From: Labilithrix sp.
Lineage (GTDB): Bacteria > Myxococcota_A > Polyangia > Polyangiales > Polyangiaceae
DNA length: 58,916 nt
Assembly (NCBI GenBank): GCA_019637105.1
Contig: JAHBWF010000031.1
Span: 1 to 58,916, forward strand
Direction: 5' to 3'
Shown: positions 3,232-55,878 of the stretch, piece by piece
Numbering within the stretch: position 1 is the first letter of the stretch
Layout of the letters: each line of letters opens with the position of its first letter
Program-made: the position numbers and the translations under genes
The notes under the pieces: generated by a model
The model's database searches: none
What the model was told of the DNA's origin: nothing
The model's input: the letters and a program-made list of their open reading frames with translations, nothing else

Positions 3232-3289
3232 GAGCCGACCCTCGCCGCAAGGTTCATGCGCGTCTACGGCCCGGCTCGGCGGCTCGGGC

Positions 3290-4564: not shown

Positions 4565-4715
4565 GGCTCATTTTTTAGCACCGTTGACGCGGTCCCGCCC
4601 GGTCCGGTGGTGAAGGCGCGAGCGGGGCTCGGGGGCGCCCGGCCGTCCTTTTGCGCTCGACGCGGCCACGAGGCCCCTTCCGGTGACGCGCAAGGACCAC
4701 TATAAGCGGGGAGGG

Positions 4716-39199: not shown

Positions 39200-39895
39200 T
39201 CAGCGGAACGGATCGTCGCTCATCGACGTCGTCTTCGTGACGCGGCCCTTCTCGAGGAAGACGACGCGGTCCCCGAGGAGCTCGGCGTCTTCGGGCTGAT
39301 GCGTCACGAGGACGGTCGGGACGCGCTCCTTCGCCAGCACCTCGCCGACCTCGCGGAGGAGCTCGGCCTTCAGCTCGGCGTCGAGCGCGCTGAACGGCTC
39401 GTCGAGGAGGATCGCGCGGGGCCTCATCGCGAGGGCGCGGGCGAGGGCGACGCGCTGCGCCTCGCCGCCGGAGAAGGTCCGCGGCGTCCGATCGGCGAGC
39501 TTGGCGACGTGCATCCTCGTGAGCATCGCGAGCGCGAGCGCGCGCCGCTCGTCGCGGGGGAGGTCGCGGGGGAGCCCGTAGGCGACGTTCGCGGCGGCGG
39601 TCATGTGGGGGAAGAGCGCCAGCGACTGGAAGACGTACGCGACGCGGCGCGCGTGGATGGGGAGATCGTCGCCGCGTTCGGCGTCGAACCACACGTCGTC
39701 CCCCAGCGCGACGCGCCCCCGCCGAGGCCGCACGAGCCCGGCGATGCTCGCCAGCGTCCGGCTCTTCCCGGCGCCCGACGGCCCGAAGAGGACGGTGACG
39801 CCGGGCGGCACCTCGAACGCGACGTCGATCCGCAGCCCCTTCGGATCGACCTCGGGCTCGAGCTCGATCCGGACGGAGAGGGACGCGTCGCTCAC
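39200..39895 (-). CDS. modC: Molybdate-type ABC transporter ATPase, short form
   Basis: The 231-residue ABC ATPase powers the ModB permease. It has Walker A GPSGAGKS, Q-loop VFQSLALFPH, signature SGGEAQR, Walker B ILLDEPFSALD and the switch His in LVTHQPED. Full-length ModC proteins have about 350 residues with a C-terminal TOBE molybdate-binding domain; here the protein stops right after the ATPase domain. An IS remnant begins 20 nt downstream, so truncation by insertion is possible. The GTG start overlaps the modB stop by four bases (GTGA). Confidence 0.85.
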   Translation of the reverse strand: MSDASLSVRIELEPEVDPKGLRIDVAFEVPPGVTVLFGPSGAGKSRTLASIAGLVRPRRGRVALGDDVWFDAERGDDLPIHARRVAYVFQSLALFPHMTAAANVAYGLPRDLPRDERRALALAMLTRMHVAKLADRTPRTFSGGEAQRVALARALAMRPRAILLDEPFSALDAELKAELLREVGEVLAKERVPTVLVTHQPEDAELLGDRVVFLEKGRVTKTTSMSDDPFR

Positions 39896-40554
39896 GGCGA
39901 TCGCTCGCGCGCGGTGAGCTTGCCGACGACGTAGAGCAGGACGATCACCACGCCGGTGAGCACCGCGATCATCAGCGCCGCGTCGCGCTCGCGGTGCGCC
40001 TGGATCGCGTCGTAGATCGCGAGCGCCGCCGTCTGCGTCTCGCCGGGGATGTCGCCGGCGACCATGAGGGTGACGCCGAAGTCCCCGAGCGACCGCGCGA
40101 AGGCGAGCATCAACGCGGCCGCGATGCCGCGGTAGGCGAGGGGGAGCTGGATCGTGAAGAACGCGCGGAGGGGCGTCGCCCCGAGCGTGCGCGCGGCGAG
40201 GACCAGCGTGGGATCGGTCTCCTCGAGCGCCGTTCGCGCGCTCTTCACGACGAGCGGCGTCGCGCCGATGACGGCGGCGACCACGGCGCCCACCTTGGTG
40301 AAGACGATCGACGAGCCGGTGAGCGACTCGAACGCGTGGCCGAGGAAGCTGCGGCGTCCGAGCAGCACCAGGACGTAGTAGCCGAGGACCGTCGGCGGCA
40401 TGACGAGCGGCGCGGTGAAGAAGACGTCGACCAGGTCCCGCCCCGGAAAGCGCAAGTTCGCGAGGATCGCCGCGACGGCGACGCCGATGAGCGCTGCGAG
40501 GACCGTCGCGACGGCGGCGACCTCGAACGACAGGAAGAGGGGTCCGAGCTCCAT
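39892..40554 (-). CDS. modB: Molybdate ABC transporter permease
   Basis: The 220-residue inner-membrane permease has five or six membrane helices. The EAA loop reads EETDPTLVLAARTLGATPLRAF near 113-134, where ModC docks; PLVMPPTVLGYYVL near 50-63 is a typical ModB block. Sulfate permeases are related, but the short length and the sequence favour molybdate. It is the first gene of the modB-modC pair. The matching binding protein gene is not adjacent but lies at 46.9-47.8 kb. Confidence 0.88.
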   Translation of the reverse strand: MELGPLFLSFEVAAVATVLAALIGVAVAAILANLRFPGRDLVDVFFTAPLVMPPTVLGYYVLVLLGRRSFLGHAFESLTGSSIVFTKVGAVVAAVIGATPLVVKSARTALEETDPTLVLAARTLGATPLRAFFTIQLPLAYRGIAAALMLAFARSLGDFGVTLMVAGDIPGETQTAALAIYDAIQAHRERDAALMIAVLTGVVIVLLYVVGKLTARERSP

Positions 40555-41864: not shown

Positions 41865-41874
41865 AGGAGCGAGC

Positions 41875-42540
41875 ATGAGAGCACTCATCTTCACGACCGT
41901 CGTCTCGCTGCTGGTCGCCGCCTGCGCGTTCGAGGACACCGACTCGCTCACCGGCCGGCGCGCGCGGGGAGGCGCGGGCGGCGAGGACGGCGACGAGGCG
42001 AGCGCGGGCGGCGCCACCCCCGGCGCCGACCCGACGCAGCCGGGGAGCTGCAAGGAGGGGCTCGCCCACCCGGGCTTCGCCAACGTCGACTTCGTCGGCG
42101 ATCGCAAGCCGGGGGCGATCGGCGCCGATCGGCGACGGGTCAAGCCGTACTCGGCGCTCCGCTCCGAGTTCCAGCGCGCGCTGGGCGCCGTCCCGGCGGG
42201 GCTCGCGACGAGCGTGGCGGCCTACGGCGACGTCCCGGCGCGCTGGTACCAGGAGCCGACGGCGGGCGCCGTGAGCCTCTACACGACGTACACGCTCGCG
42301 TTCACGGCCTGCTACGACACGATGACCGCCCCGGCCTTCGCCGAGGCGCCGACGGCCGCGAGCGCCTCGACCGAGTGCGCCAAGATGCAGCGGAAGCTCT
42401 GGCAGCGAAGCGCGACGCCGGACGAGACGAAGGCGTGCGCGGATTTCACCGTCGGCCTCGCCGACGAGCCTGCCCCGCGGCGCCGGTGGGCGCACGCGTG
42501 CGCGTCGATCATGACGGCGGCCGGATTCACCACCTACTGA
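41875..42540 (+). CDS. Lipoprotein of unknown function in the DUF1501 cassette
   Basis: The 221-residue lipoprotein (LVAAC, Cys17) has a Gly/Ala/Asp linker to about residue 58 followed by a helical domain with several cysteines (CYDTMTAP, TECAKMQ, KACADF, HACASIM). It lies 10 nt after the haem-protein gene and 11 nt before the DUF1501 gene, so it should be in one operon with both. No family recognised. Confidence 0.72.
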   Translation: MRALIFTTVVSLLVAACAFEDTDSLTGRRARGGAGGEDGDEASAGGATPGADPTQPGSCKEGLAHPGFANVDFVGDRKPGAIGADRRRVKPYSALRSEFQRALGAVPAGLATSVAAYGDVPARWYQEPTAGAVSLYTTYTLAFTACYDTMTAPAFAEAPTAASASTECAKMQRKLWQRSATPDETKACADFTVGLADEPAPRRRWAHACASIMTAAGFTTY

Positions 42541-42551
42541 GGAGTCAGACT

Positions 42552-43745
42552 ATGAAGTCGATTTCGCGTCGTGGATTCCTCAAGGCCGTGGGGGTCGGCG
42601 CCGGCGCCGTCGTCGGCGCTCGCATCCCCGGCTCTTCGCTCGTCGGCGTCGCCCGCGCGGCGACGCCGGAGCCGACGTCGGTCGTGTGCGTGTACCTCGA
42701 CGGAGGCATCAACGCGATCTTCACCGGCGCGGACGCGTTCACCAACACCGCGTTCGGCGTGACCGCGAACAACGTCACCAGCATGGGCGGGGTCGTCGTC
42801 GACAACGCGCTCGCGAACGCGATCCCGCAGGGGATCAGGAGCCGCGTGGCCTCCGTCGGCGTCCGTCACGGCATCAGCGACCACGGCAACGCGCAGCGCT
42901 CGCTCTTCGTGAGCGGCAACACGAGCGCTCCCTTGATGCTGGCCGACGCGATCGGCGGCAGCGGCGCGATCAAGGCGGCGGTCGTCGGCGGCAACAGCCT
43001 GCCGAACGGCGTACGCCCGGCGCCGGTGAACGGCGTGTCGCTCCAGCCGATCACCGACATGCGCGCGACGATCGAGGCGATCGCAGGCGCCGAGAGCGCT
43101 CCGAACCTCGCGGACCGCGGCGGCGCCGCGAAGGGGGTGGCCGCCGCGCAGGCGATGTCGATGGGCGTCGTGTCCAAGCACAAGACGTCGCTGGCGTCGG
43201 TCGAAGAAGGCCTCGCCGCGGCGATCGCGACGCTCGGCAAGCCGGTGCAGCCCTTCAACGTGGCCGAGTTCAATCAGGCGTACGGCCTCAACGGGACGAA
43301 CGTGAACAACTTCACGGCGCGGATGGCCGCGGCGGAGCTGATGGTCCGCTCGGGGACGAGCTTCGTCATCGCGCAGGACGGCGGCTGGGACACGCACGGC
43401 GACAGCAGCGGAAACACGGTGCGGAACATGGTGACCCAGCGTATCGCCCCCGGGCTCCGCACGTTCCTCACGCGGATGGTCGAAGGCGCCGCGACGGAGC
43501 GCAACGTGGTCGTCGCGATCTTCGGCGACTTCCATCGCAGCCTCCCCGGCTCCGACCACCAGGCGAACCTCGCCGCGCTCGTGATCGGGAAGTCGCTGAA
43601 GAACGCGACGACGGGCAAGACCGACGCGCGCGTCGGCGTCGCCCCGAACACGCCCGGCATCGCGGGCCTCTGGCAGCTCCTCGCCGCCGCCGCGCGCGTC
43701 GACCAGAGCCCGTTCGGCGCCAACCCTCACGACGTCCTGGCTTGA
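42552..43745 (+). CDS. Tat-exported DUF1501 (sulfatase-fold) protein
   Basis: The 397-residue protein carries a twin-Arg signal (SRRGFLKAVGVGAG, residues 4-17) and so is probably folded, or loaded with a cofactor, before export. The body shows the DUF1501 pattern: VVCVYLDGGINAIF near 41-54, GGWDTHGD near 277-284 and FGDFHRSLPGSDHQ near 323-336, like metal ligands of the alkaline phosphatase/sulfatase fold. The family is abundant in Planctomycetes and Myxococcota and its substrates are unknown. The ATG at 42552 has a GGAG box 8 nt upstream. Confidence 0.85.
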   Translation: MKSISRRGFLKAVGVGAGAVVGARIPGSSLVGVARAATPEPTSVVCVYLDGGINAIFTGADAFTNTAFGVTANNVTSMGGVVVDNALANAIPQGIRSRVASVGVRHGISDHGNAQRSLFVSGNTSAPLMLADAIGGSGAIKAAVVGGNSLPNGVRPAPVNGVSLQPITDMRATIEAIAGAESAPNLADRGGAAKGVAAAQAMSMGVVSKHKTSLASVEEGLAAAIATLGKPVQPFNVAEFNQAYGLNGTNVNNFTARMAAAELMVRSGTSFVIAQDGGWDTHGDSSGNTVRNMVTQRIAPGLRTFLTRMVEGAATERNVVVAIFGDFHRSLPGSDHQANLAALVIGKSLKNATTGKTDARVGVAPNTPGIAGLWQLLAAAARVDQSPFGANPHDVLA

Positions 43746-43756
43746 GGCCGCCGTCG

Positions 43757-44575
43757 ATGCGCCTCGGGGTCGCGATCTCGCTCGTGCTCGCGGCGTCGGC
43801 CGTCCCGCTCCCTGCCTCCGCCAACGGCGGCGGCGTCGCCGGCTACAGCGGCAAGCCGACCACGACGTCGCCGGAGGGGCAGAGCTGCAACCAGTGCCAC
43901 AGCGGCGGGGCGGCGCCTCAGGTGTCGCTCACCGGGCCCGCCACGCTCACCGCCGGTCAGTCCGCCGAGTACGCGCTCGTCGTCTCCACCGGCCAGGCGC
44001 GCGCCGCGGGGGCGGTCGCCGGGTCCGACGGAGCGCTGCTCGCGCCGTCCGTCGGCGGCGGCCTGCGCGACAGCTTCGGCGAGATGGTGCAGGACGGCTC
44101 GCGCGCCGTCGCGGGGGGCCAGGCGACCTTTCGCTTTCGCGTGACCGCGCCGACGTCCGGCACGACGCTGAAGCTCTGGGGCGTCGGGCTCGCGGCGAAC
44201 GGCTCCGGCGCCGGCGGAGATCGCGCCGCTCACGTGACGCGCGAGATCACGGTGACCGGAGGCTCGACGGAGCCGGACCCGGGCAGCAGCGGCGGCGCGC
44301 CGTCCGACGACGAGCCCGACGGAGGCGCGACCGGCGAGGCGTCGGCCGGCTCTCCGAGCTCGAGCGCGGACCCCGCGGACGACGACGTCGACGAGACGTC
44401 GGATGACGGCGAAGGCGAGAGCGCCGCCGCGCGGTCGAAGCGCCGGCGTAGGGTCTCTCCGGAGCCGTCCGCCGCGTGCGCGTCGTCACCGGCGCGCGGC
44501 GCGAGCTCGACGGTCCTCGGCGCGTCCTCGGCGGTCGCGCTCGGGTTCCTCGCCCGAAGGCGGCGGCGATCGTGA
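43757..44575 (+). CDS. Choice-of-anchor V / Reelin-like secreted protein with sorting tail
   Basis: The 272-residue protein has a signal peptide (about 1-23). A domain begins GYSGKPTTTSPEGQSCNQCH and continues VSLTGPATLTAGQSAEYALV, the pattern of choice-of-anchor V (Reelin-like) proteins. CNQCH could bind haem c. A long acidic Ser/Asp linker leads to a C-terminal hydrophobic stretch ending FLARRRRRS, which fits a MYXO-CTERM-type membrane sorting signal. It follows the DUF1501 gene by 11 nt and overlaps the next start as GTGA. Confidence 0.78.
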   Translation: MRLGVAISLVLAASAVPLPASANGGGVAGYSGKPTTTSPEGQSCNQCHSGGAAPQVSLTGPATLTAGQSAEYALVVSTGQARAAGAVAGSDGALLAPSVGGGLRDSFGEMVQDGSRAVAGGQATFRFRVTAPTSGTTLKLWGVGLAANGSGAGGDRAAHVTREITVTGGSTEPDPGSSGGAPSDDEPDGGATGEASAGSPSSSADPADDDVDETSDDGEGESAAARSKRRRRVSPEPSAACASSPARGASSTVLGASSAVALGFLARRRRRS

Positions 44576-45057
44576 CGCGGGCGCGAGGAGGCGCGCGTCT
44601 CGCCGCGGCGTGGGGGATCTCCGCGCTCGCGTCCGTCCTGATCGGGTGCGCGCCCGAGGGCAGCACGCCCGACGACGGCCGAGAGGGCCGCGCCAAGGTC
44701 GCCCAGGACGCGGGGCTCACCGAGGCCGGCGTCGACAGGAACGGCGGCCGCGACACGAGCGCGGCGTCCTGCTTCGCGGCGTGTCAGAACACGTCGTTCA
44801 GCTGCCAGGCGAAGGTCGGCGCGGCGACGACGCTGAGCGAGGCCGAGCTGACGCTCGACGCGACGGGATGCACGGGCTCCGTGACGCGCGGGACCTCGCC
44901 GGCCGTCGCTCTACGGCTCGACTGCGTCGAGGCGCAGGTGTGCGTCGGCGGAAGCCCCGGCACCACGCCCGCGGACTGCGTGGACGCGACGTTCAGCGCG
45001 TTCACCTACGCGTACACGTCCGAGGACGGCGCGTTCACGCTCTGCACGCGCAACTGA
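44572..45057 (+). CDS. Small Cys-rich lipoprotein
   Basis: The 161-residue lipoprotein (VLIGC, Cys26) has a short linker and a compact beta-rich domain with six cysteines (CFAACQ, CQAK, CTGS, CVEAQVCVGG, CVDAT, CTRN). It starts with GTG inside the stop of the previous gene. It is the last gene of the 40.9-45.1 kb cassette. Part of its coding sequence (44890-44938) has a 90% identical copy in the following intergenic region. Confidence 0.72.
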   Translation: MTRARGGARLAAAWGISALASVLIGCAPEGSTPDDGREGRAKVAQDAGLTEAGVDRNGGRDTSAASCFAACQNTSFSCQAKVGAATTLSEAELTLDATGCTGSVTRGTSPAVALRLDCVEAQVCVGGSPGTTPADCVDATFSAFTYAYTSEDGAFTLCTRN

Positions 45058-45388
45058 CGAGGTGCCGCCCGTCTCGACGAACGTGGTCGCAAACGTCGGG
45101 TGCACCGTCCGGGTCGACGTCGAAGGTTGGACGCGCACGGTGACCCGCCAGCGGCGCGGCAACCGTCGGAAGCGCAGGCGACGCCGAACAAGGTGCGACC
45201 CTCCCCCTCGCCTCCGGAAGGGAGGCGCTCGACCGAGTCGACGGCCTCCGGCTTCCGCCCGCGACGGAGCGGGACCTCGGCAGCCGTCGCTCGACGGCTC
45301 GACGGCGTCGAGGCGCGGGCACGGCGCTCGGAGGTCGCGCGGCGCGGTGTGCTAGGCTGCACGCTCCCGCGAGAGCTCGAAGCCCGAC
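45058..45388 (+). other. Intergenic region with a degenerate copy of the upstream lipoprotein gene
   Basis: 45271-45319 matches 44890-44938 in 44 of 49 positions, so this gap seems to contain a decayed partial duplication of the lipoprotein gene. A TAGGCT hexamer at 45353-45358 may be the -10 of the phosphoesterase gene. No intact gene is seen. Confidence 0.5.
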
Positions 45389-46906
45389 GTGAAGAGACAC
45401 ACCCTCGTCCTCTCCGACGTCCATCTCAGCCAGGCGCATCCGTTCGATCCGGCCGATCCCCTGTGGATGCGCTATCGGCGGAGGGAGCACCACCCCGACG
45501 CCGAGTTCGCGGCGCTGGTCGATCACCTCCTCGAGGCGTACGGCGACGACCGCATCGAGATCGTCTTCAACGGCGACGTCCTCGATTTCGACGCGCCCTG
45601 GGTGAAGGACGGCGAGAGCTCGTTCGACGAGCTGCCGCCGACGGACGAGGGCTGCGCGGAGCAGGCGCGCCTGATCCTCGCGGACCACCAGCCGTTCTTC
45701 CGCGCCGTGGCGAAGGCGCTCGCGGCCGGTCACGAGGTCACGTTCATGTCCGGCAACCACGACATCGAGCTCTACTGGCCCGGCGTCCGGAGCACGATCC
45801 GCGACGAGCTCGCGCGCCTCGTCGCGAGCCTGCCGGACGAAGACCGCCGCCTCGACGTCGTCGATCTCGAGCGAAACCTCCGCTTCCGCTCGTGGTTTCA
45901 CCTGACCGAGGACGGCATCTACTTCGAGCACGGCAGCCAGTACGACATCCACAACAGCGTGCGCCACGCGGCGGTCCCGCTGACGAAGGAGGGCGACCGG
46001 ATCCACCCGGTCCTCGGCAAGCTCGCCTTTCGCCGCGCCGGGGCCAGGATGGGCTACTTCAACCCGTACTACGAGGAGACCTTCTACATGGGGCTCTTCG
46101 GGTACCTCGGCCATTTCGCGCGCTTCTACGCGTTCAGCCGCCGCCACATCGCCCGAACGTGGCTCTTCGGCTCGCTCAGCACGGTCCGCGAGATCTGGGA
46201 GCACCGGCACAAGTACGAGCGTCTCGAGGAGGGCCGCGCGGCGCTCCGGAGCGAGCTCGGCGTCGACATCAGCGACGAGGCGATCGACGCGACCCACGCG
46301 CTTCGTACGCGGCTCGCCGAGGAGACGATGATCCCGGTCGTCCGTGAGCTCTGGGTCGATCGCGTCGCGCTCGCGGCCTTCGCGGTCGTCGCCGTCGCGC
46401 TCGCGGCGATCGTCTCCGGGCTCGTCGCCTGCGCGATCACGGCGGGCGTCGTCGTCGCGCTCTTCGTGGTCTACGAGCTCGTCACGCCGAAGCCCGACAT
46501 CCGCACCTACGACTCGGCGCCGCCCACCGTGCTCCGCTTGTTCGACATCCACGGCGTGCGCGCGATCTGCATGGGGCACACCCATCGCCCGTTCGCGCGC
46601 TTCTCCGAAGAGGGCCTCTACGCGAACAGCGGCTCGTGGTGCCCGGCCTTCGAGGATCAGCTCTGCACCAAGCCCGTCCTCGACGGCCGGCCGGTCCTCT
46701 GGCTCACGACGGAGCGCGTGGCGGCGACGGGCGAAGAGCACCTGTACGGCGGCCTCCACTGGTGGCGCCGGGCCGTGCTCGTCGCGGACCCCGAAGCGTC
46801 GCGCGCCGCGCCGGCCGAGGTCGAGCGGCGCGTCGAGGCGGTCCCGCTCGTCGTCGCGCCTTCCGCGGGCGCCGCGGCCGAGCCGCCGAGCGAGCGAGCC
46901 CTGTAG
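45389..46906 (+). CDS. Calcineurin-like metallophosphoesterase with membrane segments
   Basis: The 505-residue protein has all five metal-binding motifs of the calcineurin-like family: SDVHLS (9-14), GDVLDF near 66, GNHD near 126, EHGSQYD near 181 and GHTHRPF near 393. Two hydrophobic helices (about 328-372) sit between the fourth and fifth motifs and would tether it to the membrane. The substrate is unknown; the lipid-A enzyme LpxH has the same fold but is shorter and lacks internal membrane helices. GTG start. It converges with modA (28 nt gap). Confidence 0.82.
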   Translation: MKRHTLVLSDVHLSQAHPFDPADPLWMRYRRREHHPDAEFAALVDHLLEAYGDDRIEIVFNGDVLDFDAPWVKDGESSFDELPPTDEGCAEQARLILADHQPFFRAVAKALAAGHEVTFMSGNHDIELYWPGVRSTIRDELARLVASLPDEDRRLDVVDLERNLRFRSWFHLTEDGIYFEHGSQYDIHNSVRHAAVPLTKEGDRIHPVLGKLAFRRAGARMGYFNPYYEETFYMGLFGYLGHFARFYAFSRRHIARTWLFGSLSTVREIWEHRHKYERLEEGRAALRSELGVDISDEAIDATHALRTRLAEETMIPVVRELWVDRVALAAFAVVAVALAAIVSGLVACAITAGVVVALFVVYELVTPKPDIRTYDSAPPTVLRLFDIHGVRAICMGHTHRPFARFSEEGLYANSGSWCPAFEDQLCTKPVLDGRPVLWLTTERVAATGEEHLYGGLHWWRRAVLVADPEASRAAPAEVERRVEAVPLVVAPSAGAAAEPPSERAL

Positions 46907-46934: not shown

Positions 46935-47801
46935 TTACGGGGCGCGCGTCTCCGTCGGCGCGGGCGGCGCCTCGCCGGGGAGCAGGAAGCCGAACCGCTT
47001 CATGATCGCGCGCCCGGCCTCCGAGCCGACGAGCGCGACGAACGCGTTCGCCTCGTTCGACTTCGCGCCCTTGCTGCCGCCCTTGCACACGACGAGCGCC
47101 TGATCGAGCGGCTCGTGGAGGGCGGGGTCGATCGGCGTGTAGTTCCCCGGCGACGTGACCGCGAGCGACAGCGCCACGATCGCGACGTCGGCGTTGCCCG
47201 AGCGCGCGAACATGAGCGTCTGCTGCACGTTCTCTCCGTAGACCACGCGAGGCCGCACGGTCTCCCACGCCCCGGATCTCGTCAGCGCCTCGCGCGCGGC
47301 GCGCCCGTACGGCGCGTGCTCCGGGTTGGCGAGGGCGACCTTCGCGTACTTGGGATCCGCGAGGTCTTCGATGCCCTTGGGCAGGAGCCACGGATCCTTC
47401 GACCACATCACGATGCGACCTCTGGCGTAGAGCGCCTTGGTCTCGCCGAGGCACGCCCCCTCGCGCACGACGTCGTCGACGAACGACACGTTCGCCGCGG
47501 CGAAGACGTCGAACGGCGCGCCCTCGGCGATCTGCTTGGCGAGCAGGCCGGTCGAGCCGAACGAGAAGTCGACGTGCTTGCCGGTCTGCTTCTCGAAGGC
47601 CGCGCCGATCTCCTTGAACGCGAGCGCCAGATCGGCCGCGGCCGCCACGCGGAGGGGATCGCCCTTGCGCGCGCCGTCGCCGCGCGCGTCTCCGCCGCCC
47701 GAGCCCGCGCGCTTGTCGCAGCCGAGCGCCAGGACGAGCGCGGCCACGAGGAGCGCGCGCGCGCGCCGACGCTCAATCGCGGCTGATGACCGTTCCGACA
47801 T
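46935..47801 (-). CDS. modA: Molybdate-binding lipoprotein
   Basis: ModA captures molybdate (or tungstate) outside the inner membrane for the ModBC channel. The 288-residue protein has a lipoprotein signal (LALGC, Cys28, then Asp), a Gly linker and the PBP-II fold. Blocks are VAAAADLALAFKEIG, FSFGSTGLLAKQI, GAPFDVFAAANVSFVDD, NPEHAPYGRAA and a C-terminal VALVGSEAGRAIMKRFGF. GSTG and NPEHAPYG are expected oxyanion contacts. Its start lies inside the mosB-like gene (29-nt overlap), which ties uptake to storage. Confidence 0.92.
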   Translation of the reverse strand: MSERSSAAIERRRARALLVAALVLALGCDKRAGSGGGDARGDGARKGDPLRVAAAADLALAFKEIGAAFEKQTGKHVDFSFGSTGLLAKQIAEGAPFDVFAAANVSFVDDVVREGACLGETKALYARGRIVMWSKDPWLLPKGIEDLADPKYAKVALANPEHAPYGRAAREALTRSGAWETVRPRVVYGENVQQTLMFARSGNADVAIVALSLAVTSPGNYTPIDPALHEPLDQALVVCKGGSKGAKSNEANAFVALVGSEAGRAIMKRFGFLLPGEAPPAPTETRAP

Positions 47802-48594
47802 CCTCTCCCTCCAGGGCGCGGGTGAGCTGCCCCTTCTCGAGCCCGTTGACGATCTGGATCTCCGTGCAGAAGCGCGAGCGCTGCATGTACTCGAGGACGA
47901 CGCGCTCCACGACCATGTCGGGGAGGTCCCGCTCGAGCAGCTCCTTCGCGGTGATCCGCGGGATGCGCTCGGCGCGCTCGTTCTTCTTGGGGTCGTCCGT
48001 GTAAAGGCCGTCCTCGTCCTTCACGAAGATCGCCCGCTTGCAGCCGAGCACCTCGGCCGTGAGGAACACGCCGGCGTCGGTCCGGTGCTCCGGGATGCGC
48101 CCGCCCGCCGTCGGCTTCTCCCAGTAGCCGAACGGCGGCATGCCCGTCATGATCGGGATGCAGCCGAGGCGGAAGTAGAGCGGCAGCTTCTCGAAGTCGT
48201 CGTGGAGGATGAAGAGCCCTCCGTGCTTCGCGAGGAGCATCTGGAGCATCCGGGCGTTCTGCCGCGGCACGTACCCGCCGAGCGCGGCGAGCACGCCGGT
48301 CGGGAGCTCGAGATCGCTCGCGACGGCGTAGATGTGGCGCGCGCGGGTGCCGCCGCCGCAGCAGAGGAGGAGCTTGTGCTCGTCCTTCGCCGCGATCACC
48401 TCGTCGAGGATCGGGTAGAGCGCGGCGCGGCCGCGATCCATCACCGATTGACCGCCGATCTTGAGGACGCGGACGTCGGGCATCATCGCGACCGGCGTGT
48501 AGTCGAGGCCCTCGGGCCACCCTCCCGTCGTGAGCGTGGCGTCGGCGAGCTTGCTCGAGATCCGGCGGCGCTCGTGGCGTTTCGCGCTGTGCAT
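47773..48594 (-). CDS. mosB: Molybdenum storage protein subunit, MosB-like
   Basis: The 273-residue protein has the amino-acid-kinase/UMP-kinase fold. It resembles the beta subunit of the Azotobacter molybdenum storage protein (MoSto): VLKIGGQSVMDRGRAALYP, GGGTRARHIYAVASDLELP, RTDAGVFLTAEVLGCK, FVKDEDGLYTDDPKK and QIVNGLEKGQLTRALEG. MoSto hetero-hexamers use ATP to pack polyoxomolybdate clusters. Assignment to the beta rather than the alpha subunit rests on the IGGQSVxDRGRAA and KDEDGLYT blocks, recalled from memory. Canonical UMP kinase lacks the C-terminal VNGL...GTI block. It overlaps modA and lies 27 nt after the other subunit gene. Confidence 0.85.
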   Translation of the reverse strand: MHSAKRHERRRISSKLADATLTTGGWPEGLDYTPVAMMPDVRVLKIGGQSVMDRGRAALYPILDEVIAAKDEHKLLLCCGGGTRARHIYAVASDLELPTGVLAALGGYVPRQNARMLQMLLAKHGGLFILHDDFEKLPLYFRLGCIPIMTGMPPFGYWEKPTAGGRIPEHRTDAGVFLTAEVLGCKRAIFVKDEDGLYTDDPKKNERAERIPRITAKELLERDLPDMVVERVVLEYMQRSRFCTEIQIVNGLEKGQLTRALEGEDVGTVISRD

Positions 48595-48621
48595 CTGGGT
48601 GTCTCCTCTCGTCCGCTCGCG

Positions 48622-49500
48622 TCAGTTCCGAGTGATGATCGTGCCGACGGGCTCGCCGGCGAGCGCCTTGGTGAGCTGCCCGGGGACGAGGCCGTTGACG
48701 ATCTGGATCTGTTCGACGTGCCGCGCGCGCTGCCAGCACACGAAGAGCTGACGATCGACGATGAGGTCGTCGGGCATCCGTTCCATGACGGCGTCGAGCG
48801 TCGTCCGTGGGATGAGCTTCGCGTCGGCGTGCTTCTTCGGATCCTTGTCGTGGAGGCCGTCCTCGTCCTTGACGAAGACGAGCTTCTTCATCCCGAGCAC
48901 CTCGGCGTGGATGAAGAGGCCGAAGTCGGAGCCGTGCGTCGGCAGCGGGCCGTCCTCCGGCGGCGGCTCCCAGAAGTGGTACGGAGGGATCGAGATCACG
49001 ATCGGGAGCATCCCGCTCTCGAGGTAGAGCGGGAGCTCCCAGAAGTGCTCCCGCTGCATGACGATCGAGCCGTGCTTCGCGAGGAGCGCGTTGAGGAACA
49101 CGGCGTTCGCCTCCTCCATCGCGCCGACCAGCTGCGCGACGCCGCCCGTGGGGATCCCGAGATCGAGCGCGACGCTCACGGTGTGGCGGACGCGCGTCCC
49201 GCCGCCCACGCCGAGCACCATCGGCGGCGGGGCCACGACCCTCCCTCCGGCCGGCGCGCGCTCGGTCGCGGCCCTGCGAGCCTCGCGCAGCGTCTTGAGC
49301 TCCTCGACGAGCGGCATGACGGCGGCCTTGCCGCGATCGAAGATCGACTGCCCTCCGAGGCCCACCAGCACGACGTCCGGCAGGATCGCGAACTCGCCGT
49401 CGGAGTCGGTCGTCGCGACCACGCGGCGGTCGACCAGCGACTCGCGCATCAACGACGACTCGATGTGCGTCCGGCCGTCGCCGGTCACGAGCTTGCTCAT
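48622..49500 (-). CDS. mosA: Molybdenum storage protein subunit, MosA-like
   Basis: This 292-residue paralogue of the preceding protein should be the partner MoSto subunit. It has VGLGGQSIFDRGKAAVMP, an insertion of about 20 residues (about 83-100), GGGTRVRHTVSVALDLGIP and the IPPYHFWEPP loop. In the Azotobacter alpha subunit the equivalent loop is His-rich and binds the molybdenum cluster. The end reads RHVEQIQIVNGLVPGQLTKA. Two different subunits side by side fit the alpha3beta3 cage. The ATG overlaps the stop of the upstream ECF-like gene (ATGA). Confidence 0.85.
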   Translation of the reverse strand: MSKLVTGDGRTHIESSLMRESLVDRRVVATTDSDGEFAILPDVVLVGLGGQSIFDRGKAAVMPLVEELKTLREARRAATERAPAGGRVVAPPPMVLGVGGGTRVRHTVSVALDLGIPTGGVAQLVGAMEEANAVFLNALLAKHGSIVMQREHFWELPLYLESGMLPIVISIPPYHFWEPPPEDGPLPTHGSDFGLFIHAEVLGMKKLVFVKDEDGLHDKDPKKHADAKLIPRTTLDAVMERMPDDLIVDRQLFVCWQRARHVEQIQIVNGLVPGQLTKALAGEPVGTIITRN

Positions 49501-50798
49501 GGGGTCTCCGTCTCCAGATCGTTCTTCGCCGGAGCCACGACGGCTCCGGTCTTCGGTTCGTGACGAGGGGCGCTCGTCGCCGCGACGGCGCGGATCAACG
49601 GGGAGCTGACGAGCCCGGAGAGTACCCCGAACGTCGTGTGGATCACGAGGCCCGGGACGAGGAACGCCCACGCGACGGCGGGGGCCTGCACGGTGAGCGT
49701 CACCGTGAAGATCGTCGCGAACCGCGCGACGCCCATGACGCCGCCGACGATCGACCAGGCGATCGCGCCGGGCCTGCGGCCGCCCGCGACGACGAGCGGC
49801 ACGACGAGGTCGCACAGGATCCCGGGGGCGACGTGCTTCAGGATCTCGAAGACGCCGTAGCGCCCGTCGCCGAGGAGGAACGCGACGCTGCCCATGACGA
49901 TCCCGGTGAGCGTCGCGCCGAGGCGCGTGCGCGTCTTCAGCGACGCCACGACGTAGAGGGGCGTGAGCAGCACGAGCTTGTGCCCGGGCGCGAACGGGAC
50001 GTTCGGCAAGAGCTTGAGCGCCTTGATCCCGAGCATCGTGAGCGAGATCCCGACGATGATCGCCACGTCGCGCGACGCCGCGCGACGATCGGCGCCCGGC
50101 CGGCGCTCGGAGCGCTCGAGGTAGCTCTCCGCGCGACCGATGTGGCGCTCGATGCGGTCGACCATCGGCCCGACGTCGCCGCGCGCGACGCGGCGGAGGC
50201 TCGCGAGGAAGCCCTCGCGCGCTCCGGGCGTCTCCTCGCGCCCGCGCCCGCCGCCGCCACGCCCGGCCCCGCCGCCGCGCCCGCCGCCTCCTCCGCCCCC
50301 ACCGCCGCCGAGGAGCGCGAGGACCGCGTCGATCGACGTCGCGACGACGTCCGGCGCCCGGAGCTTGCGGAGCCCCAGCGCGATCGCGCGCTCGTCCCCC
50401 GCGCGCGCGACGCTCGACGCGAGCACTACCACGAGGACGCGGAGCACCATCAGCCCGCCGACCGCGGCGCCGCCGACGTTCAGCGGGACGCGCGCGAAGC
50501 CGAGATCGAGCTCGAGCCAGCGATCGACGCTCGGGTCCTCGGCCGTCAGCGCGTAGGACGCCGTCACGAACGCCGCGAAGCCCCACAGCTTCAGCACCCG
50601 CCGCGCCAGCGCGCGCGCGCCGAGGCGGAGCGCGAGCCAGGCGATCACGTGGAGGCCGAGGAGGGCGCCGGCGAGCCGGGCGTCCCTCACGAGGAACGCG
50701 CCGACGGCGACGGCGGCGAGGTACAGCACGCGGAGCCGCGGATCGACGCGCGCGGCGCCGGAGCTGGGCTCTTCGATGGGCCGTCGGCCGCCGCTCAT
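49497..50798 (-). CDS. Fused EcfT-like / S-component-like membrane protein
   Basis: This is a 433-residue membrane protein. Residues 20-163 resemble the EcfT/CbiQ transmembrane subunit of energy-coupling-factor transporters (DPRLRVLYLAAVAVGAFL; GLRKLRAPDVV). A run of Gly and Arg follows (164-187), then a helical stretch with RRVARGDVGP like an EcfT coupling helix (about 198-235). The C-terminal part (243-405) has about six membrane helices, with GHKLVLLTPLYVVASLKTRT resembling an S (substrate-capture) component. No EcfA ATPase gene is adjacent. Its coupling to the MoSto genes suggests molybdate, tungstate or another metal, but this is inference. Confidence 0.6.
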   Translation of the reverse strand: MSGGRRPIEEPSSGAARVDPRLRVLYLAAVAVGAFLVRDARLAGALLGLHVIAWLALRLGARALARRVLKLWGFAAFVTASYALTAEDPSVDRWLELDLGFARVPLNVGGAAVGGLMVLRVLVVVLASSVARAGDERAIALGLRKLRAPDVVATSIDAVLALLGGGGGGGGGGRGGGAGRGGGGRGREETPGAREGFLASLRRVARGDVGPMVDRIERHIGRAESYLERSERRPGADRRAASRDVAIIVGISLTMLGIKALKLLPNVPFAPGHKLVLLTPLYVVASLKTRTRLGATLTGIVMGSVAFLLGDGRYGVFEILKHVAPGILCDLVVPLVVAGGRRPGAIAWSIVGGVMGVARFATIFTVTLTVQAPAVAWAFLVPGLVIHTTFGVLSGLVSSPLIRAVAATSAPRHEPKTGAVVAPAKNDLETETP

Positions 50799-50853: not shown

Positions 50854-51378
50854 CTACCGCGTGGAGCCTTGCTGCTCCTTCGTCTTCGTCGGCGGGCAGA
50901 CGCTCCGCGGCACGTTCTTCCTCACCTTCGGGATGTCCCGGAGGTACTTGACGATCGAGTACACCTCGAAGTCGCTCATCTGCGAGTAGTGCGTCATCTG
51001 GGGGCAGAGCGCCTGGCTCTCTTCGTCGATCCCGGAGCGGATCGCCACCGCGAGCGCCTCGTCGCTCCACGTCCCTATGCCCGTCTCGTCGTTCGTCAGG
51101 TTGGGCGGATAGAGCTCGACCGGCTCGCCCTGGATCGTGTCGGCGACGCCGGGGAGCTTCGTGAGGCTCCCGCTCAGGTCTCGACCGTGGCAGTCGACGC
51201 ACCGGCGCTTGACGACGGCCTGCGCGCCCGCCTCGACGGTCGCGATCTCCTTGCACTCCGGGTTGCTCCGCGGGCACTCGGCGTCCCCGGCGTCCCCGGC
51301 GTCTTCACCGCAAGCCCAGGCGCTCGCCGCGGCGGCGGCGAAGGCGGCGGCGCACAGGGCGCGTCGCCAGGCGATCAT
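50854..51378 (-). CDS. Cytochrome c-type lipoprotein
   Basis: The 174-residue lipoprotein (SAWAC, Cys23) has one class-I cytochrome c domain. Haem attachment is CVDCHG near 58-63 and the likely axial Met is in LCPQMTHYSQMSD near 125-137, followed by YSIVKYLRDIP. It is the last gene of a minus-strand group running from 55.9 kb. Probably an electron carrier in the periplasm or on the outer face. Confidence 0.82.
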   Translation of the reverse strand: MIAWRRALCAAAFAAAAASAWACGEDAGDAGDAECPRSNPECKEIATVEAGAQAVVKRRCVDCHGRDLSGSLTKLPGVADTIQGEPVELYPPNLTNDETGIGTWSDEALAVAIRSGIDEESQALCPQMTHYSQMSDFEVYSIVKYLRDIPKVRKNVPRSVCPPTKTKEQQGSTR

Positions 51379-51499
51379 GGTCGGGCCCCCGGGGACACCC
51401 CCGAGGTCGAGCAGGAGGCGCGCCGCCCGGCGAGGCGGGCGACGCGCTCGTTGTTCGCCGCGCGAGCTCGAGCGTCGCGACGCTTCGCCGTCGGGAGCG

Positions 51500-52468
51500 T
51501 CACTTTCCGCAGAGACCGGCGTTGTACTTGTCGATGACGTCGTTCACGAACGCGTCGAGCGCCGCGGACTGGTTGGGCGTCAAGGTGAACATCGGGTGCG
51601 AGTACGCCTTGTCCTTCCGCGTCGCCTCGGCCTTCTTGCGGAGCGAGTCGGAGGCGATCGGCTTGCCCTCTGGGCTCACGCCGAAGTACTTGGTGATGTA
51701 CGCGGGGGTCGTGAGCTTCGTCTCCTCGAAGGTGTTGTCGGCGGGGAGGATGGGGTTGCCGACGGCGTTCTTGTAGTTCGTCGCCGCGTCGGCCGAGTGA
51801 CACGTCGTGCACGGGGCGTTGTCGCAGCCCGTGCAGGTGTCGGCGTTCTCGTTCCAGGGCGTCACGTTGTTCGTGTTGTTGTTGTTCGTGCGCCGCGTCG
51901 TCCGCCACTGGCCGAGGTTCATCGCGTCGAACTTCTGACGGTCGAAGCAGTCGCCGAGCTTCTCGAGGACGTTCGGCGGCGCCTCCTGCCCGCCGTCCGC
52001 GAGCTCCATCGCGACCCACTCGTTGTACTTCTGGATCTCGGCGGTCGAGAGCACGTTCGTCGTCGAGCCGCCGTGCGCGGGCTTCACGATGACGCGCGAC
52101 TGCTCGACGACGTAGCCGACCTGGAAGAGCTGCGCGTACGACTTCTCCGCGTCCGCGGCGGTGAGCCAGGCCGGGCCGGGCCCGGCGGCGCCGTGGCACG
52201 CGGCGCACTTCTGCGCCATGAACGGGTGCACGTTCGTCGTGTAGAACTCCTTGCCGGCGGGGCTGTTCGTCGGAACGGGGCCCGAGGGCGTCGAGTCGTC
52301 CGGGGTGGTGTCGCCGCCGGGGGAGGACGTGTCGCCGTCGCCGCCGGACGACGTCTTGCCGCCGGCCCGCTTGGTGCCGCCGTAGCTGAGCGAATCGGCT
52401 TCGCCTCCGCACGCCGCCGCGACAGTCGCGGCGGCGAGCGCGAGACCGAGCAGAGTACGAGCGTTCAT
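51500..52468 (-). CDS. Secreted c-type haem lipoprotein with degenerate third site
   Basis: The 322-residue lipoprotein (VAAAC, Cys20) has a Ser/Gly/Asp linker. CAACHG (near 89-94) is a complete haem site. A second region reads DTCTGCDNAPCTTCHSADA: CTTCH is complete, while CTGCD has lost the His. An Asn-rich patch (RTNNNNTNN) lies between. It starts 1 nt after the stop of the upstream gene and is therefore probably co-translated with it. Likely an electron-transfer or peroxidase-like protein; no family assigned. Confidence 0.75.
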   Translation of the reverse strand: MNARTLLGLALAAATVAAACGGEADSLSYGGTKRAGGKTSSGGDGDTSSPGGDTTPDDSTPSGPVPTNSPAGKEFYTTNVHPFMAQKCAACHGAAGPGPAWLTAADAEKSYAQLFQVGYVVEQSRVIVKPAHGGSTTNVLSTAEIQKYNEWVAMELADGGQEAPPNVLEKLGDCFDRQKFDAMNLGQWRTTRRTNNNNTNNVTPWNENADTCTGCDNAPCTTCHSADAATNYKNAVGNPILPADNTFEETKLTTPAYITKYFGVSPEGKPIASDSLRKKAEATRKDKAYSHPMFTLTPNQSAALDAFVNDVIDKYNAGLCGK

Positions 52469-52469
52469 C

Positions 52470-54695
52470 TCAGGCCTCCCCACGCTTGCGGCGGAGCGCG
52501 ACGACGACGCCGACGAGGGCGAGGCCGAGGAGGGCGTCGGGCGAGCTCGAGCCGCCCGGCGCCGCGGAGCAACCCGCGCTGTCCGTCGCTCCGGCGCCGG
52601 AGCGCGTGGGCCGCGTGGCGTCGTCTTCGCCGTCGGGGACGACGTCCGTGTTTCCGGACGAGCCGCTCTCGCCGCTCGGGTCGGTGCCCGGCCCGTTGGA
52701 GCGCGGCGCGGGGCCGGTGCCGTCCTCGTTCTCGCCGGGCTTGTCGGTCGGCTTGCCGGGGACGGTCGTGATGCCCTCCTGCCAGGCGGCCGGCACGAGG
52801 GAGAGCCAGATCGAGTTCTTCAGGCCGCGGGCCATCCCGTCCGCGTCCGAGTATCCGGTGACGGTCGAGAAGGAGAACTGCTTCACCTCGGGCATGAAGT
52901 TGGTCGCCGCCTTCGCCGGATCCGTGGTGAAGCCCGGGTTCGGGACGTTGCCGAGGCCGTTGATGAAGCCGCGCGCCTGGTTGTTCGGGTTGCGCTTCCC
53001 GCGCGCCTGGACGTTCGCGACGTCCGAGAAGGGCGAGACCTGGTAGACCTTCGCCGCGTCCTTGACGCCGAGCGTACCGTCCGCCTTCAGCGGGTACATC
53101 TGGATGAAGCCGCCGCCGGTGCCGGTCGACGAGCCGCTGATCACCGCGAGCGCGGGCTCGGCGTTCGGGCCGTAGCCGGTGACGAACGAGCTGCCGTGGC
53201 GGCCGTACTGGCCGACGCCGAGGATCGGCGCGCCGACGATCGAGAGATCCGCCTTGTCGACGAGGACGGCGGCCTCGACCTTCTTGCCGCCCGCGTGGCC
53301 GTTCCCGTTGTTCGCGTTCTGTCGGACCTGGGCCGCGAGGCCGTAGGTGATCGCGAGCTTGTCGCCGAGGATCCCGAGGACCGGCTCGGAGACGTACTTG
53401 TTCTGGTTCGGCTGCGAGCGAACGACGATCTTGCTCTGGAGGGGCGCGCCGGTCGCGACGTTGAACTCCGTCACGCGGAAGCCGATCTCCGCCGGCTGGT
53501 TGTTCGCCTCCACCGCGGCGATGAAGCCGGTGGTCGCGCCGGGCGCGATGGCGACCTGCGGGCGGCAGTGCTGCGAGGTGTTCGAGTACCGGCGGAGCCA
53601 GTTCACCCGCACGGTCGCGTCGTCCGCGACCGTGACGCTGAAGGCCTCCTGCGCCTGGTTGTTGTACTGCATGCCGACGACGAACGTGTTGTCGTCGACC
53701 CGCTGGATCGTGTGCGGTCCGCGCTGGTTGTTCGGGTTCTGGACCTGAACGCCGTTCCGGAGCGCCTGCTGGATGAGGTTCGTCGGCTTGTTGAGGTTGC
53801 CGGCGCCGCGGGTCGTGTTGGGGATCTGGACGAGCTGCCCGGTCGCCTTGTCGGCGACGAACATGACCGGCTGCGGGTTGTTGTTGATCCCGTTGTCCTC
53901 GCTCGCGGCGATGATGATGACGTGGTTCTTCGTGAAGCCGAGCGTCGGCCGCATGAAGGTCCGCTCGCCGTTGAGGCGCGGCAGCGCGACCTCGGGGCCC
54001 GGGACGACGCCCTTCTCGGTGAGCGTCGCGAGGGCGAAGCCCCCCTGCATGTAGCTGTTGTTGCCGTTCGGCTGGTTGTCGGACCGCGTGTACGCGGTGG
54101 CGAGGGTCACCTTCGTCTTGTCGGTCGCGAAGCCGACCGAGTCCCACGCGAACGCGGCGTCCATCGTACCCGCGCCGGTGTTCTTCCCGATCCGGTTCGG
54201 CCCCTTGTCGTCGCCCGAGACCCACACCTTCGAGTAGGTGTTGAGCACCACCGTCGTGCCCGTGCCCGACCCGGCGCCGCCGCCGTTGCCGCCGCCGGTT
54301 CCGTTGCCGTTGCCGCCGCCGGTTCCGTTGCCTCCGCCGGTTCCGCCGCCATTGCCTCCGCCGGTTCCGTCGCCGTTGCCGCCGCCGGTTCCGTTGCCTC
54401 CGCCGGTTCCGTCGCCGTTGCCGCCGCCGGTTCCGTTGCCGTTGCCGGTGCCGTCTCCGGCGCCCGCGCCGGTCTCGTCGGTCCCCGGCGCCGACGGGCT
54501 GCCGGGGGCGGCGCCGTTCGACCCGCCCGTCGTGTCGGGATCGTTCGCGACGGAGTCGTCCGTGGCGCCGCGCTGCGGGAAGCGCTCGCCGTCGTCGCCG
54601 GCGAGGCGGTCCGGGCTCCCTGCGTCACCGCATCCCGCCGCGGCGAACATGGCGAGCATCGCAACGGTGACCGCAGACATCGCAGACGTTTTCAT
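52470..54695 (-). CDS. Large lipoprotein with Gly/Asn/Thr repeat linker and C-terminal sorting tail
   Basis: The 741-residue protein has a lipobox (AAAGC, Cys22) and then a linker of repeated TGGGNG units (about 85-150), encoded by a tandem DNA repeat. The main domain (about 155-660) is beta-rich with many Asn (NNNPQPVMFVADKATGQLV, for example) and looks like a beta-propeller. The C-terminus has an Asp/Gly/Ser stretch, then SSPDALLGLALVGVVVALRRKRGE, matching a MYXO-CTERM-like tail apart from its Cys-poor start. Both ends thus carry an anchoring signal. Function unknown. Confidence 0.75.
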   Translation of the reverse strand: MKTSAMSAVTVAMLAMFAAAGCGDAGSPDRLAGDDGERFPQRGATDDSVANDPDTTGGSNGAAPGSPSAPGTDETGAGAGDGTGNGNGTGGGNGDGTGGGNGTGGGNGDGTGGGNGGGTGGGNGTGGGNGNGTGGGNGGGAGSGTGTTVVLNTYSKVWVSGDDKGPNRIGKNTGAGTMDAAFAWDSVGFATDKTKVTLATAYTRSDNQPNGNNSYMQGGFALATLTEKGVVPGPEVALPRLNGERTFMRPTLGFTKNHVIIIAASEDNGINNNPQPVMFVADKATGQLVQIPNTTRGAGNLNKPTNLIQQALRNGVQVQNPNNQRGPHTIQRVDDNTFVVGMQYNNQAQEAFSVTVADDATVRVNWLRRYSNTSQHCRPQVAIAPGATTGFIAAVEANNQPAEIGFRVTEFNVATGAPLQSKIVVRSQPNQNKYVSEPVLGILGDKLAITYGLAAQVRQNANNGNGHAGGKKVEAAVLVDKADLSIVGAPILGVGQYGRHGSSFVTGYGPNAEPALAVISGSSTGTGGGFIQMYPLKADGTLGVKDAAKVYQVSPFSDVANVQARGKRNPNNQARGFINGLGNVPNPGFTTDPAKAATNFMPEVKQFSFSTVTGYSDADGMARGLKNSIWLSLVPAAWQEGITTVPGKPTDKPGENEDGTGPAPRSNGPGTDPSGESGSSGNTDVVPDGEDDATRPTRSGAGATDSAGCSAAPGGSSSPDALLGLALVGVVVALRRKRGEA
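54273..54458. repeat. GC-rich tandem repeat array encoding the Gly/Asn linker
   Basis: About 186 bp made of imperfect 18- and 24-bp units based on GTTGCCGCCGCCGGTTCC. They encode seven TGGGN-containing units, which alternate as TGGGNGDG and TGGGNG in a 42-bp higher-order pattern. It is an in-frame minisatellite and likely length-variable. Confidence 0.75.
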
Positions 54696-54741
54696 GTCGC
54701 ATCCTCCAACACGATCGGGTCCAGACGAGCGCCGAGCTCGC

Positions 54742-55878
54742 CTACTGCTGCTCACCACGGCCGAGCCTCCCGCGCGCGTCGTCGATGGCGGCGAGCTGCA
54801 CGCTGAGGTCCGTGTCTTCCGAGATCGTCACGAGATCGCGCTTCGTCGCCGGCGAGGTGGCCTTGTAGAAGAGCACCGCGCTGACGAGCGCGTCGCGGTC
54901 CGCGACGCCGGTTCCCTGAGCCTGAATTCGAGCGGGGACGTGGAGCTTGAGCTTGCCGTGGCCGTGCTTCGGCAGCGTGAACGTCGTACGCGGGGCGAGC
55001 GCCGCGAGCTCTTCGCCGGTCGCCCGCGCGATGACGTCGTCGCCGGCCATGATCTCGACGGTGTCGAAGGCCGCGATCTCCACGCCCATGCCGGCGACGA
55101 GCTTGGCGAGGGAGTACCTGGTCTCGCTCGGATCTCCGGCGGCCGCGCCGGCGATCATCTCGTCGCCGACGTTGCGGCGCTTGACGAAGCCGACCATCTT
55201 TCCGTCGACGTACACGCGCGTTCCCTTCGCGGTCACGCCGTCCGAGTACGGGATCTCGTCGGTGCAGTCGCCGTCCGCGCCGACGTGGCACTGGCGCTGC
55301 GGGTGAATCGCCGGCGAGGGCTTGCTCACGTAGATCGTCACGCGACGGATCTCGTGGATGACGAACTCGTTCTTGAGGTCGTCGGTGTCCCACTTCTGCA
55401 GCGGGGTGCCGGTGTTGCCGGAGATGAACGAGAAGAGGAAGCGGTCCTTCTCCTTGCGGAGCTCGCTGCCCTCGAGGCTCGCGATGCGATCGTTGTTGCC
55501 GTGGAAGTGAACCGACTTGATCGACTCCGGCGCGACGCCGATGCCCTTCACGTAGTCGTAGATCTTGTAGCGCCGGCCGCCGCCTTCGAGCTCGATCGGC
55601 GTGAGCGCGGGGATCTCGCCGGCGCGGAGCACCGCCACCTGCTTGCCGTCGACGTAGACCGGCGCGTCGAGGCCCATCAGCCTGCGCGTGCCGTGCTTCG
55701 GATCGTTCGGATCGAGCTTGCCGTCGCCGCCGATGGCCGCGGCCGCCGCGGCCGCCGCCGGAGGCACGGCGCGCGGCGCGGACTTCGCTCCGGCGGTCGG
55801 CTCGGGCGTCTTCTTCGAGCACGCGAGCGCGCTCGTGAGGACTCCGGCGATCATCAGCGGGCGAAGCAGGCCGACCAT
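54742..55878 (-). CDS. Lipoprotein of unknown function with conserved beta domain
   Basis: This is a 378-residue lipoprotein (TSALAC, Cys20) with an Ala/Pro linker. Two similar beta modules follow: LDAPVYVDGKQVAVLRAGEIP and KGTRVYVDGKMVGFVKRRNVG. This internal repeat suggests a duplicated domain, and two Cys in RQCHVGADGDCTD may form a disulfide. It lies 46 nt upstream of the big lipoprotein gene on the same strand. The ATG at 55878 gives the best signal peptide; 55905 is an alternative. Confidence 0.72.
   Translation of the reverse strand: MVGLLRPLMIAGVLTSALACSKKTPEPTAGAKSAPRAVPPAAAAAAAAIGGDGKLDPNDPKHGTRRLMGLDAPVYVDGKQVAVLRAGEIPALTPIELEGGGRRYKIYDYVKGIGVAPESIKSVHFHGNNDRIASLEGSELRKEKDRFLFSFISGNTGTPLQKWDTDDLKNEFVIHEIRRVTIYVSKPSPAIHPQRQCHVGADGDCTDEIPYSDGVTAKGTRVYVDGKMVGFVKRRNVGDEMIAGAAAGDPSETRYSLAKLVAGMGVEIAAFDTVEIMAGDDVIARATGEELAALAPRTTFTLPKHGHGKLKLHVPARIQAQGTGVADRDALVSAVLFYKATSPATKRDLVTISEDTDLSVQLAAIDDARGRLGRGEQQ

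Follow-up and report, generated by a model that had tools for sequence, protein, structure and literature searches.

A MoSto-like subunit pair linked to an EcfT-like membrane protein and molybdate import genes: a probable molybdate/tungstate acquisition and storage cassette in Myxococcota and other phyla

A contig of 58,916 nucleotides from the soil myxobacterium Labilithrix sp. (NCBI GenBank assembly GCA_019637105.1, contig JAHBWF010000031.1; its whole length is called the window below) carries four minus-strand open reading frames at 46935-50798 that encode, in order, a membrane protein related to the EcfT subunit of energy-coupling factor (ECF) transporters, two subunits, A and B, of the family of the molybdenum storage protein MoSto, and the molybdate-binding protein ModA. 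We consider it probable that these genes, together with modB and modC further along the same strand, form a cassette for the acquisition and storage of molybdate or tungstate, with ModABC as the importer, the A/B pair as the storage cage and the EcfT-like protein as the membrane partner of that cage. This reading builds on the identities of the genes, on their conserved linkage and co-occurrence, and on the finding of no nifD above cut-off in the genomes that carry them; it places import and probable cage storage of the metal in a myxobacterium without detected nitrogenase. The strand, positions and junctions of the four genes are as a first-pass annotation of the stretch had given them: the EcfT-like and A genes share a 4-base ATGA overlap, A and B are separated by a 27-base gap, and B and modA overlap by 29 bases. 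The same gene order is seen again in other genomes. The members of the system are the following.

49497..50798, minus strand: EcfT-like/S-like two-domain membrane protein, 433 residues; recognised by TIGR02454, a family profile and conserved residues
48622..49500, minus strand: MoSto-like subunit A, 292 residues; residue aligned to MoSto His156 kept (PPYH), without the P-loop lysine
47773..48594, minus strand: MoSto-like subunit B, 273 residues; P-loop lysine kept, no His at the His156 position
46935..47801, minus strand: ModA, molybdate-binding protein, 288 residues; TIGR01256, lipobox-like signal (ALGC)
39892..40554, minus strand: ModB permease, 220 residues; TIGR02141 at 203.5 bits, cut-off 182.6
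39200..39895, minus strand: ModC ATPase, 231 residues; TIGR02142, 4-base overlap with modB

For comparison, a scan of GTDB species genomes gave at least 509 related stretches; the loci discussed here are the best 80 of these, leaning to close relatives, and many of them come from the same genomes as a set of 377 Myxococcota genomes that was surveyed as well. One locus (L151, from the same metagenome-assembled genome, or MAG, as L146) was left out of the neighbourhood and ATPase counts, which therefore refer to 79 loci.

The two central subunits belong to the MoSto family. Against Azotobacter vinelandii MoSto (MosA/MosB), subunit A matches beta at 4.3e-61 and alpha at 1.1e-39, with a best uridine monophosphate (UMP) kinase match of 3.2e-5, and subunit B matches beta at 1e-74 and alpha at 8.3e-46, with a best UMP kinase match of 1.8e-10. 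Both are Pfam AA_kinase proteins and so share a fold superfamily with UMP kinase (PyrH), but they reach only 18.5-66.9 bits on UMP kinase models, against cut-offs of 158 and 244, and a separate true PyrH of 311 bits is encoded elsewhere in the genome; these scores rule out an identity as UMP kinase or another amino-acid kinase. The profile comparison that the first-pass annotation had suggested thus upholds its assignment of the pair to the MoSto family. Its more specific labels, MosA-like and MosB-like, claim too much, as both subunits are nearer to MoSto beta and a tree, albeit with a long-branch warning, sets them apart. In public records, the MoSto beta genes of several Azospirillum plasmids (H1-H8) carry the name uridine kinase or uridine monophosphate kinase.

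As in A. vinelandii MoSto, the pair consists of two unequal paralogous subunits of the amino-acid-kinase fold, encoded by adjacent genes. In the A. vinelandii protein, an octamolybdate cluster (Mo8) is covalently bound to His156 and Glu129, according to the part of the structural literature consulted (PMC4504029). A histidine stands at the position of MoSto alpha His156 in 74 of 78 A subunits, that of the window included, and in 4 of 81 B subunits. Conversely, 80 of 81 B subunits have K at what we take to be the position of the P-loop lysine. Storage of molybdenum (Mo) or tungsten (W) is strongly suggested as the putative function of the A/B pair. Two loci, in Gemmatimonadales (L136) and Glassbacteria (L148), have a third subunit gene, giving two of the A type and one of the B type, and in one further genome (L042 / L112, G163) the A gene matches over its last 82 residues alone within an odd longer frame, being truncated or misassembled.

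The identity of ModA, as first annotated, is secure, with 187.4 bits on TIGR01256 against a cut-off of 62.5, and it is the sole ModA match in the genome. Its partners are encoded by modB and modC, which overlap each other by 4 bases and follow modA on the same strand at a distance of 6.4 kb downstream. ModC scores 192.9-195 bits on TIGR02142, below the cut-off of 285, and is the best of 67 genome stretches that match the ModC model; it seems to be without the C-terminal part, because its alignment is limited to model positions 12-216 of 353. All three subunits of a molybdate importer are thus found, ModA and ModB above and ModC below cut-off, although the window departs from a typical ModABC system in the distance of modBC from modA and in the short ModC. 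A mostly plus-strand block (40890-46906), which includes a metallophosphoesterase gene at 45389-46906, sits between modA and modBC. The mod genes are split in the same way in two Labilithrix MAGs (L080, L081), with a similar gap from modA to modB, whereas in L083, L085, L086, L110 and others, modA, modB and modC come directly after the pair or within about 1 kb of it. Since modB and modC are present, and mod genes stand beside the pair in other genomes, ModABC is the evident importer. The view of the first-pass annotation that the four genes form a capture and import unit therefore stands in so far as ModA is part of the cassette, but the ECF-like gene, to which import had been ascribed, is an additional component and not the evident importer, and the interval it delimited leaves out modB (39892-40554) and modC (39200-39895), both part of the system.

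The EcfT-like protein is less easily recognised. Taken alone, the window protein matches EcfT weakly (TIGR02454 at 3.9e-6 and 26.8 bits, cut-off 111.8) and has no Pfam CbiQ match. At the level of the family, the ECF relationship proposed earlier is confirmed: in an alignment (A3) of the window protein with those of 37 loci, picked for completeness from 56 loci, TIGR02454 recognises 36 of the 38 proteins and Pfam CbiQ 24 of them at E <= 0.1, and the family profile matches solved EcfT chains at 2e-10, the aligned part covering residues 17-148 of a chain of 266. The transmembrane core of EcfT is present at about residues 18-152 of the window protein. Past chain residue 148, the remainder of EcfT is undetected by the family profile; next in the protein comes a Gly-rich linker (about residues 164-186), variable in length among homologues, and then a C-terminal membrane domain of about 200 residues. 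In EcfT, the C-terminal half holds the coupling helices and contacts the ATPases. Within the C-terminal domain of the family, K274, D330 and R359 are invariant (38/38), and basic residues occupy positions 259 and 313 in all 38 proteins and position 292 in 37. The invariant K274 and R359, with the basic residues at 259 and 313, are compatible with an anion. The nearest family of this domain is the MptD/Trep_Strep S component, a weak likeness seen in 13 of 38 proteins at E <= 1, with a best match of 1.4e-3 that is below cut-off. The protein thus resembles ECF transporters in an N-terminal part homologous to the first half of EcfT and in a C-terminal part that is weakly S-like, and differs from them in joining T-like and S-like parts in one chain through a Gly-rich linker and in having no dedicated EcfA ATPases beside its gene, though these could lie elsewhere in the genome. 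It is the sole match to the CbiQ/EcfT models in its genome.

The genes recur together. An EcfT-like gene is found near the pair in 54 of the 70 loci with at least 600 bases readable upstream, and directly upstream in 51; by group, the figures are 38 of 53 Myxococcota or deltaproteobacterial loci (L140 is counted here, as it shares its contig with the Myxococcota genome G241) and 16 of 17 others; two loci, L142 and L109, have no phylum name in their records. Among the 377 Myxococcota genomes, the MoSto pair profile is found in 24 (G003 being counted on one fragment only), the EcfT-like protein in 19 and both in 18, an overlap with a hypergeometric probability of 1e-24, uncorrected for kinship. 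In the single genome with the EcfT-like protein and no pair, G218, the match runs to 22-52 bases from the contig end, so that a downstream pair could escape view. The genomes with the pair and without the EcfT-like protein are G163, G366, G369, G003, G044 and G256, the last of which starts inside the A gene. Considering loci with 3 kb on both sides, and calling mod genes near when modA is within 5 kb or modB/modC within 8 kb on either strand, mod genes are near the pair in 27 of 46 loci, namely in 26 of 37 with the EcfT-like gene against 1 of 9 without it. The survey of neighbours in other Myxococcota that had been proposed for the locus therefore finds both the EcfT-like gene and the mod genes recurring near the pair. 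The EcfT-like protein is tied to the mos pair and to no ECF module. A correlation of 0.91 between identities of the EcfT-like protein and those of the subunits was discarded as evidence of contact, since shared inheritance alone yields such a value.

The first-pass annotation had suggested that a Myxococcota-like genome would be a new context for such genes; the context is not confined to this genome, as the cassette is seen in seven phyla. Related pairs come mostly from Myxococcota/deltaproteobacterial MAGs, and also from Nitrospirae, Gemmatimonadales, Planctomycetota, Gammaproteobacteria (Alcanivoracaceae), Emcibacter, Crocinitomix and Glassbacteria. Alcanivorax sp. 1008 (L156), whose record is not flagged as a MAG, has the EcfT-like gene, the pair and modABC. 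In the Alcanivorax order the pair occurs in 4 of 390 genomes, one of which (G583) shows neither an EcfT-like nor a mod gene within the 14 kb read; in Planctomycetota the C-terminal domain of the EcfT-like protein occurs in 2 of 392 genomes, once beside a pair and once at a contig end. A search of plasmids for the EcfT-like gene gave no match to P0001 at an E-value of 1e-5. In mainly open-access literature, of which part was consulted, we found no report of MoSto in Myxococcota or of an ECF protein linked to MoSto; to that extent, the membrane protein that travels with the cage gene pair in several phyla is undescribed.

Which ATPase, if any, could serve the EcfT-like protein can be read in part from its neighbours. 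The EcfT-like gene has an ATP-binding cassette (ABC) ATPase within 5 kb in 32 of its 56 loci, and every match but one (L136) stands beside modB; ModC is the sole ABC ATPase that recurs beside the EcfT-like gene. L047 shows a one-base overlap of modC with the EcfT-like gene, and in one MAG (L155, equal to L051) a single open frame encodes both ModC and the EcfT-like protein, with a Gly-rich stretch between them. In that same MAG, ModA and ModB also form one open frame (L155:1272-2804), next to the ModC/EcfT-like frame at 2600-4876, which may be a matter of assembly.

Nitrogen fixation does not appear to be the context of these genes. In agreement with the first-pass annotation, which saw no sign of it, nifD (TIGR01282) is found in 0 of the 24 mos-bearing Myxococcota genomes and above cut-off in 0 of 47 genomes in a wider, partly overlapping set (47 of the 80 loci), where there are three weak matches; in a control, 3 of 14 genomes gave a match, one above cut-off. 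As far as nifD shows, a link to nitrogenase is rejected. MoSto was described from a nitrogen fixer and is tied to nitrogenase in the part of the literature consulted (PMC6448029), and MoSto genes are also found on 10 Azospirillum plasmids, standing together in the three loci read. One could accordingly suppose that the cassette is an ordinary diazotroph MoSto locus that has outlived the nitrogenase; we regard this as very improbable, given the lack of nifD above cut-off in the 24 and 47 carrier genomes, the spread of carriers over seven phyla, and the three Azospirillum loci, which show no EcfT-like gene (by profile) and no mod genes (by tblastn).

Enzymes that would use the metal are present. 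Proteins with the MoCoBD_1 domain were found in 19 of 20 Myxococcota genomes with the mos pair and in 11 of 20 without it (Fisher p 0.008), a comparison that is confounded by kinship and genome size and that covers 20 of the 24 mos-bearing genomes (G003, G208, G241 and G256, incomplete or fragmentary, being omitted) and 20 of the 353 others. The molybdopterin oxidoreductase family PF00384 occurs in all 40 genomes and does not separate carriers from the rest. It is also conceivable that the system handles tungsten rather than molybdenum and supplies tungstoenzymes, as ModA proteins commonly bind both metals. MoSto, too, takes up tungsten, according to the part of its description consulted (PMC6448029). 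We nevertheless find a dedicated tungsten system unlikely, because the best model for the binding protein is ModA and not WtpA or TupA, and because molybdopterin-enzyme families are present.

Besides this confounding and the uninformative PF00384 count, several results weigh against the reading of the locus as an import and storage cassette. The first concern the pair itself. None of the 78 A and none of the 81 B subunits has E at the Glu129 position; the residue is Q in the A subunit of the window and in 44 of the 78, although the local alignment has a one-residue gap nearby, so that a shifted acidic residue is possible. The P-loop lysine is absent from A (0/78), again in departure from MoSto. 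In an unrooted tree of 84 of 165 rows, A and B subunits group separately, except for two L139 rows, and the six Azotobacter/Azospirillum alpha and beta subunits are split from all 78 others by a 96/93 branch, which carries a long-branch warning. The pair may therefore derive from a duplication separate from that of MoSto alpha and beta. Because Glu129 and the P-loop lysine are absent from A and the tree keeps the groups apart, we file the pair as a MoSto-like lineage that would function like MoSto, rather than as mosA/mosB. The same features leave room for the idea that A/B is a MoSto-related enzyme or regulator of the amino-acid-kinase fold that has lost storage, such as a Mo-responsive ATPase regulating ModABC. 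Such a role seems to us quite unlikely in view of the histidine that 74 of 78 A subunits have where MoSto has its cluster ligand His156, the conserved pairing of unequal subunits, and the molybdate import genes that adjoin it across phyla.

The remaining points concern the membrane protein and its linkage. No solved structure matches the C-terminal domain even at E 10, and the three Azospirillum loci show that MoSto genes occur without EcfT-like and mod neighbours. Among the 70 loci, 16 carry the pair without the EcfT-like gene (L105-L108, L112, L117, L119, L121, L122, L124, L126, L128, L132, L133, L146 and L159), so that the cage can evidently manage without this neighbour; within these 16, the stretch read contains mod genes in L112 only, and weak ATPase matches in L122 and L159. 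Fourteen EcfT-like loci with 5 kb readable on both sides have no ABC ATPase within that distance, L080 and L081 among them, where modC lies further away. The fusion with ModC, finally, is known from one MAG.

These observations bear on the main rival to the storage cassette, namely that the EcfT-like/S-like protein itself transports Mo or W species (for example chelated or condensed ones), inward as a second importer or outward, working beside ModABC and energised by ModC or another ATPase. While the N-terminal homology to EcfT, the weak likeness of the C-terminal domain to S components, the invariant charged residues and the single ModC fusion would all suit such a transporter, the EcfT match ends at chain residue 148 of 266, leaving the part that couples to ATPases undetected; moreover, ModC aside, no ABC ATPase recurs beside the gene, and its tie to the mos pair persists where no mod genes are nearby (11 of 37 loci). 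We therefore regard independent transport as a real but minor possibility.

In the storage cassette that we favour, ModA would capture the oxyanion and ModBC import it. A and B would probably alternate in a hexameric cage that spends ATP to pack the oxyanion as polyoxo clusters. Within this cage, B would be the ATPase subunit, hydrolysing ATP for loading, since it keeps the P-loop lysine, and A the cluster-binding subunit, since it keeps the residue aligned to His156. The EcfT-like/S-like protein would most likely serve as the membrane partner of the cage, a dock or conduit passing molybdate or tungstate between ModABC and the cage; any ATPase that it uses would probably be ModC. The clients would be molybdopterin enzymes and not nitrogenase. 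One could go further and speculate that the locus encodes a new membrane machine, an EcfT-S fusion without an ATPase of its own that borrows ModC and feeds a MoSto-like cage directly, coupling import to ATP-driven storage, and that such cages are the general Mo/W store of which the Azotobacter type is a stripped-down special case; this larger picture is conceivable, but we hold it to be doubtful.

The known example of metal storage by a protein in polyoxo clusters is MoSto. The distribution of the MoSto-like pairs suggests that such storage serves generally to buffer a micronutrient and extends beyond nitrogen fixation. If the pairs do store Mo or W, bacteria of many phyla in which no nitrogenase was detected buffer both metals by means of protein cages, and the purpose of such stores becomes testable, with the EcfT-like protein as a concrete candidate for the link between import at the membrane and loading of the cage.

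Upstream of the EcfT-like gene, three further genes at 50854-54758 lead into it on the same strand; two encode cytochrome c-like lipoproteins and the third a large secreted protein.

50854..51378, minus strand: cytochrome c-like lipoprotein; 55 bases separate its gene from the EcfT-like gene downstream; possible operon member
51500..52483, minus strand: cytochrome c-like lipoprotein, two CxxCH motifs; many Myxococcota loci have a relative upstream of the mos pair
52470..54758, minus strand: large secreted protein, 14-base overlap with the 51500..52483 gene, with a tail that we take to be MYXO-CTERM-like; possible operon member

The protein encoded at 52470..54758 has no Pfam match at E <= 0.01, and a search of the window and four loci for a Mo-cofactor riboswitch or another known RNA gave no Rfam match at gathering scores. 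Counting loci with 3 kb upstream, 24 of 37 from Myxococcota/deltaproteobacteria have a relative of the 51500-52483 gene in the same orientation as the pair and no more than 5 kb upstream of it, against 0 of 16 others. In five loci (L105, L107, L119, L132 and L133), which show no mod genes in the stretch read, a cytochrome-like gene stands directly upstream of the pair, in the usual place of the EcfT-like gene.

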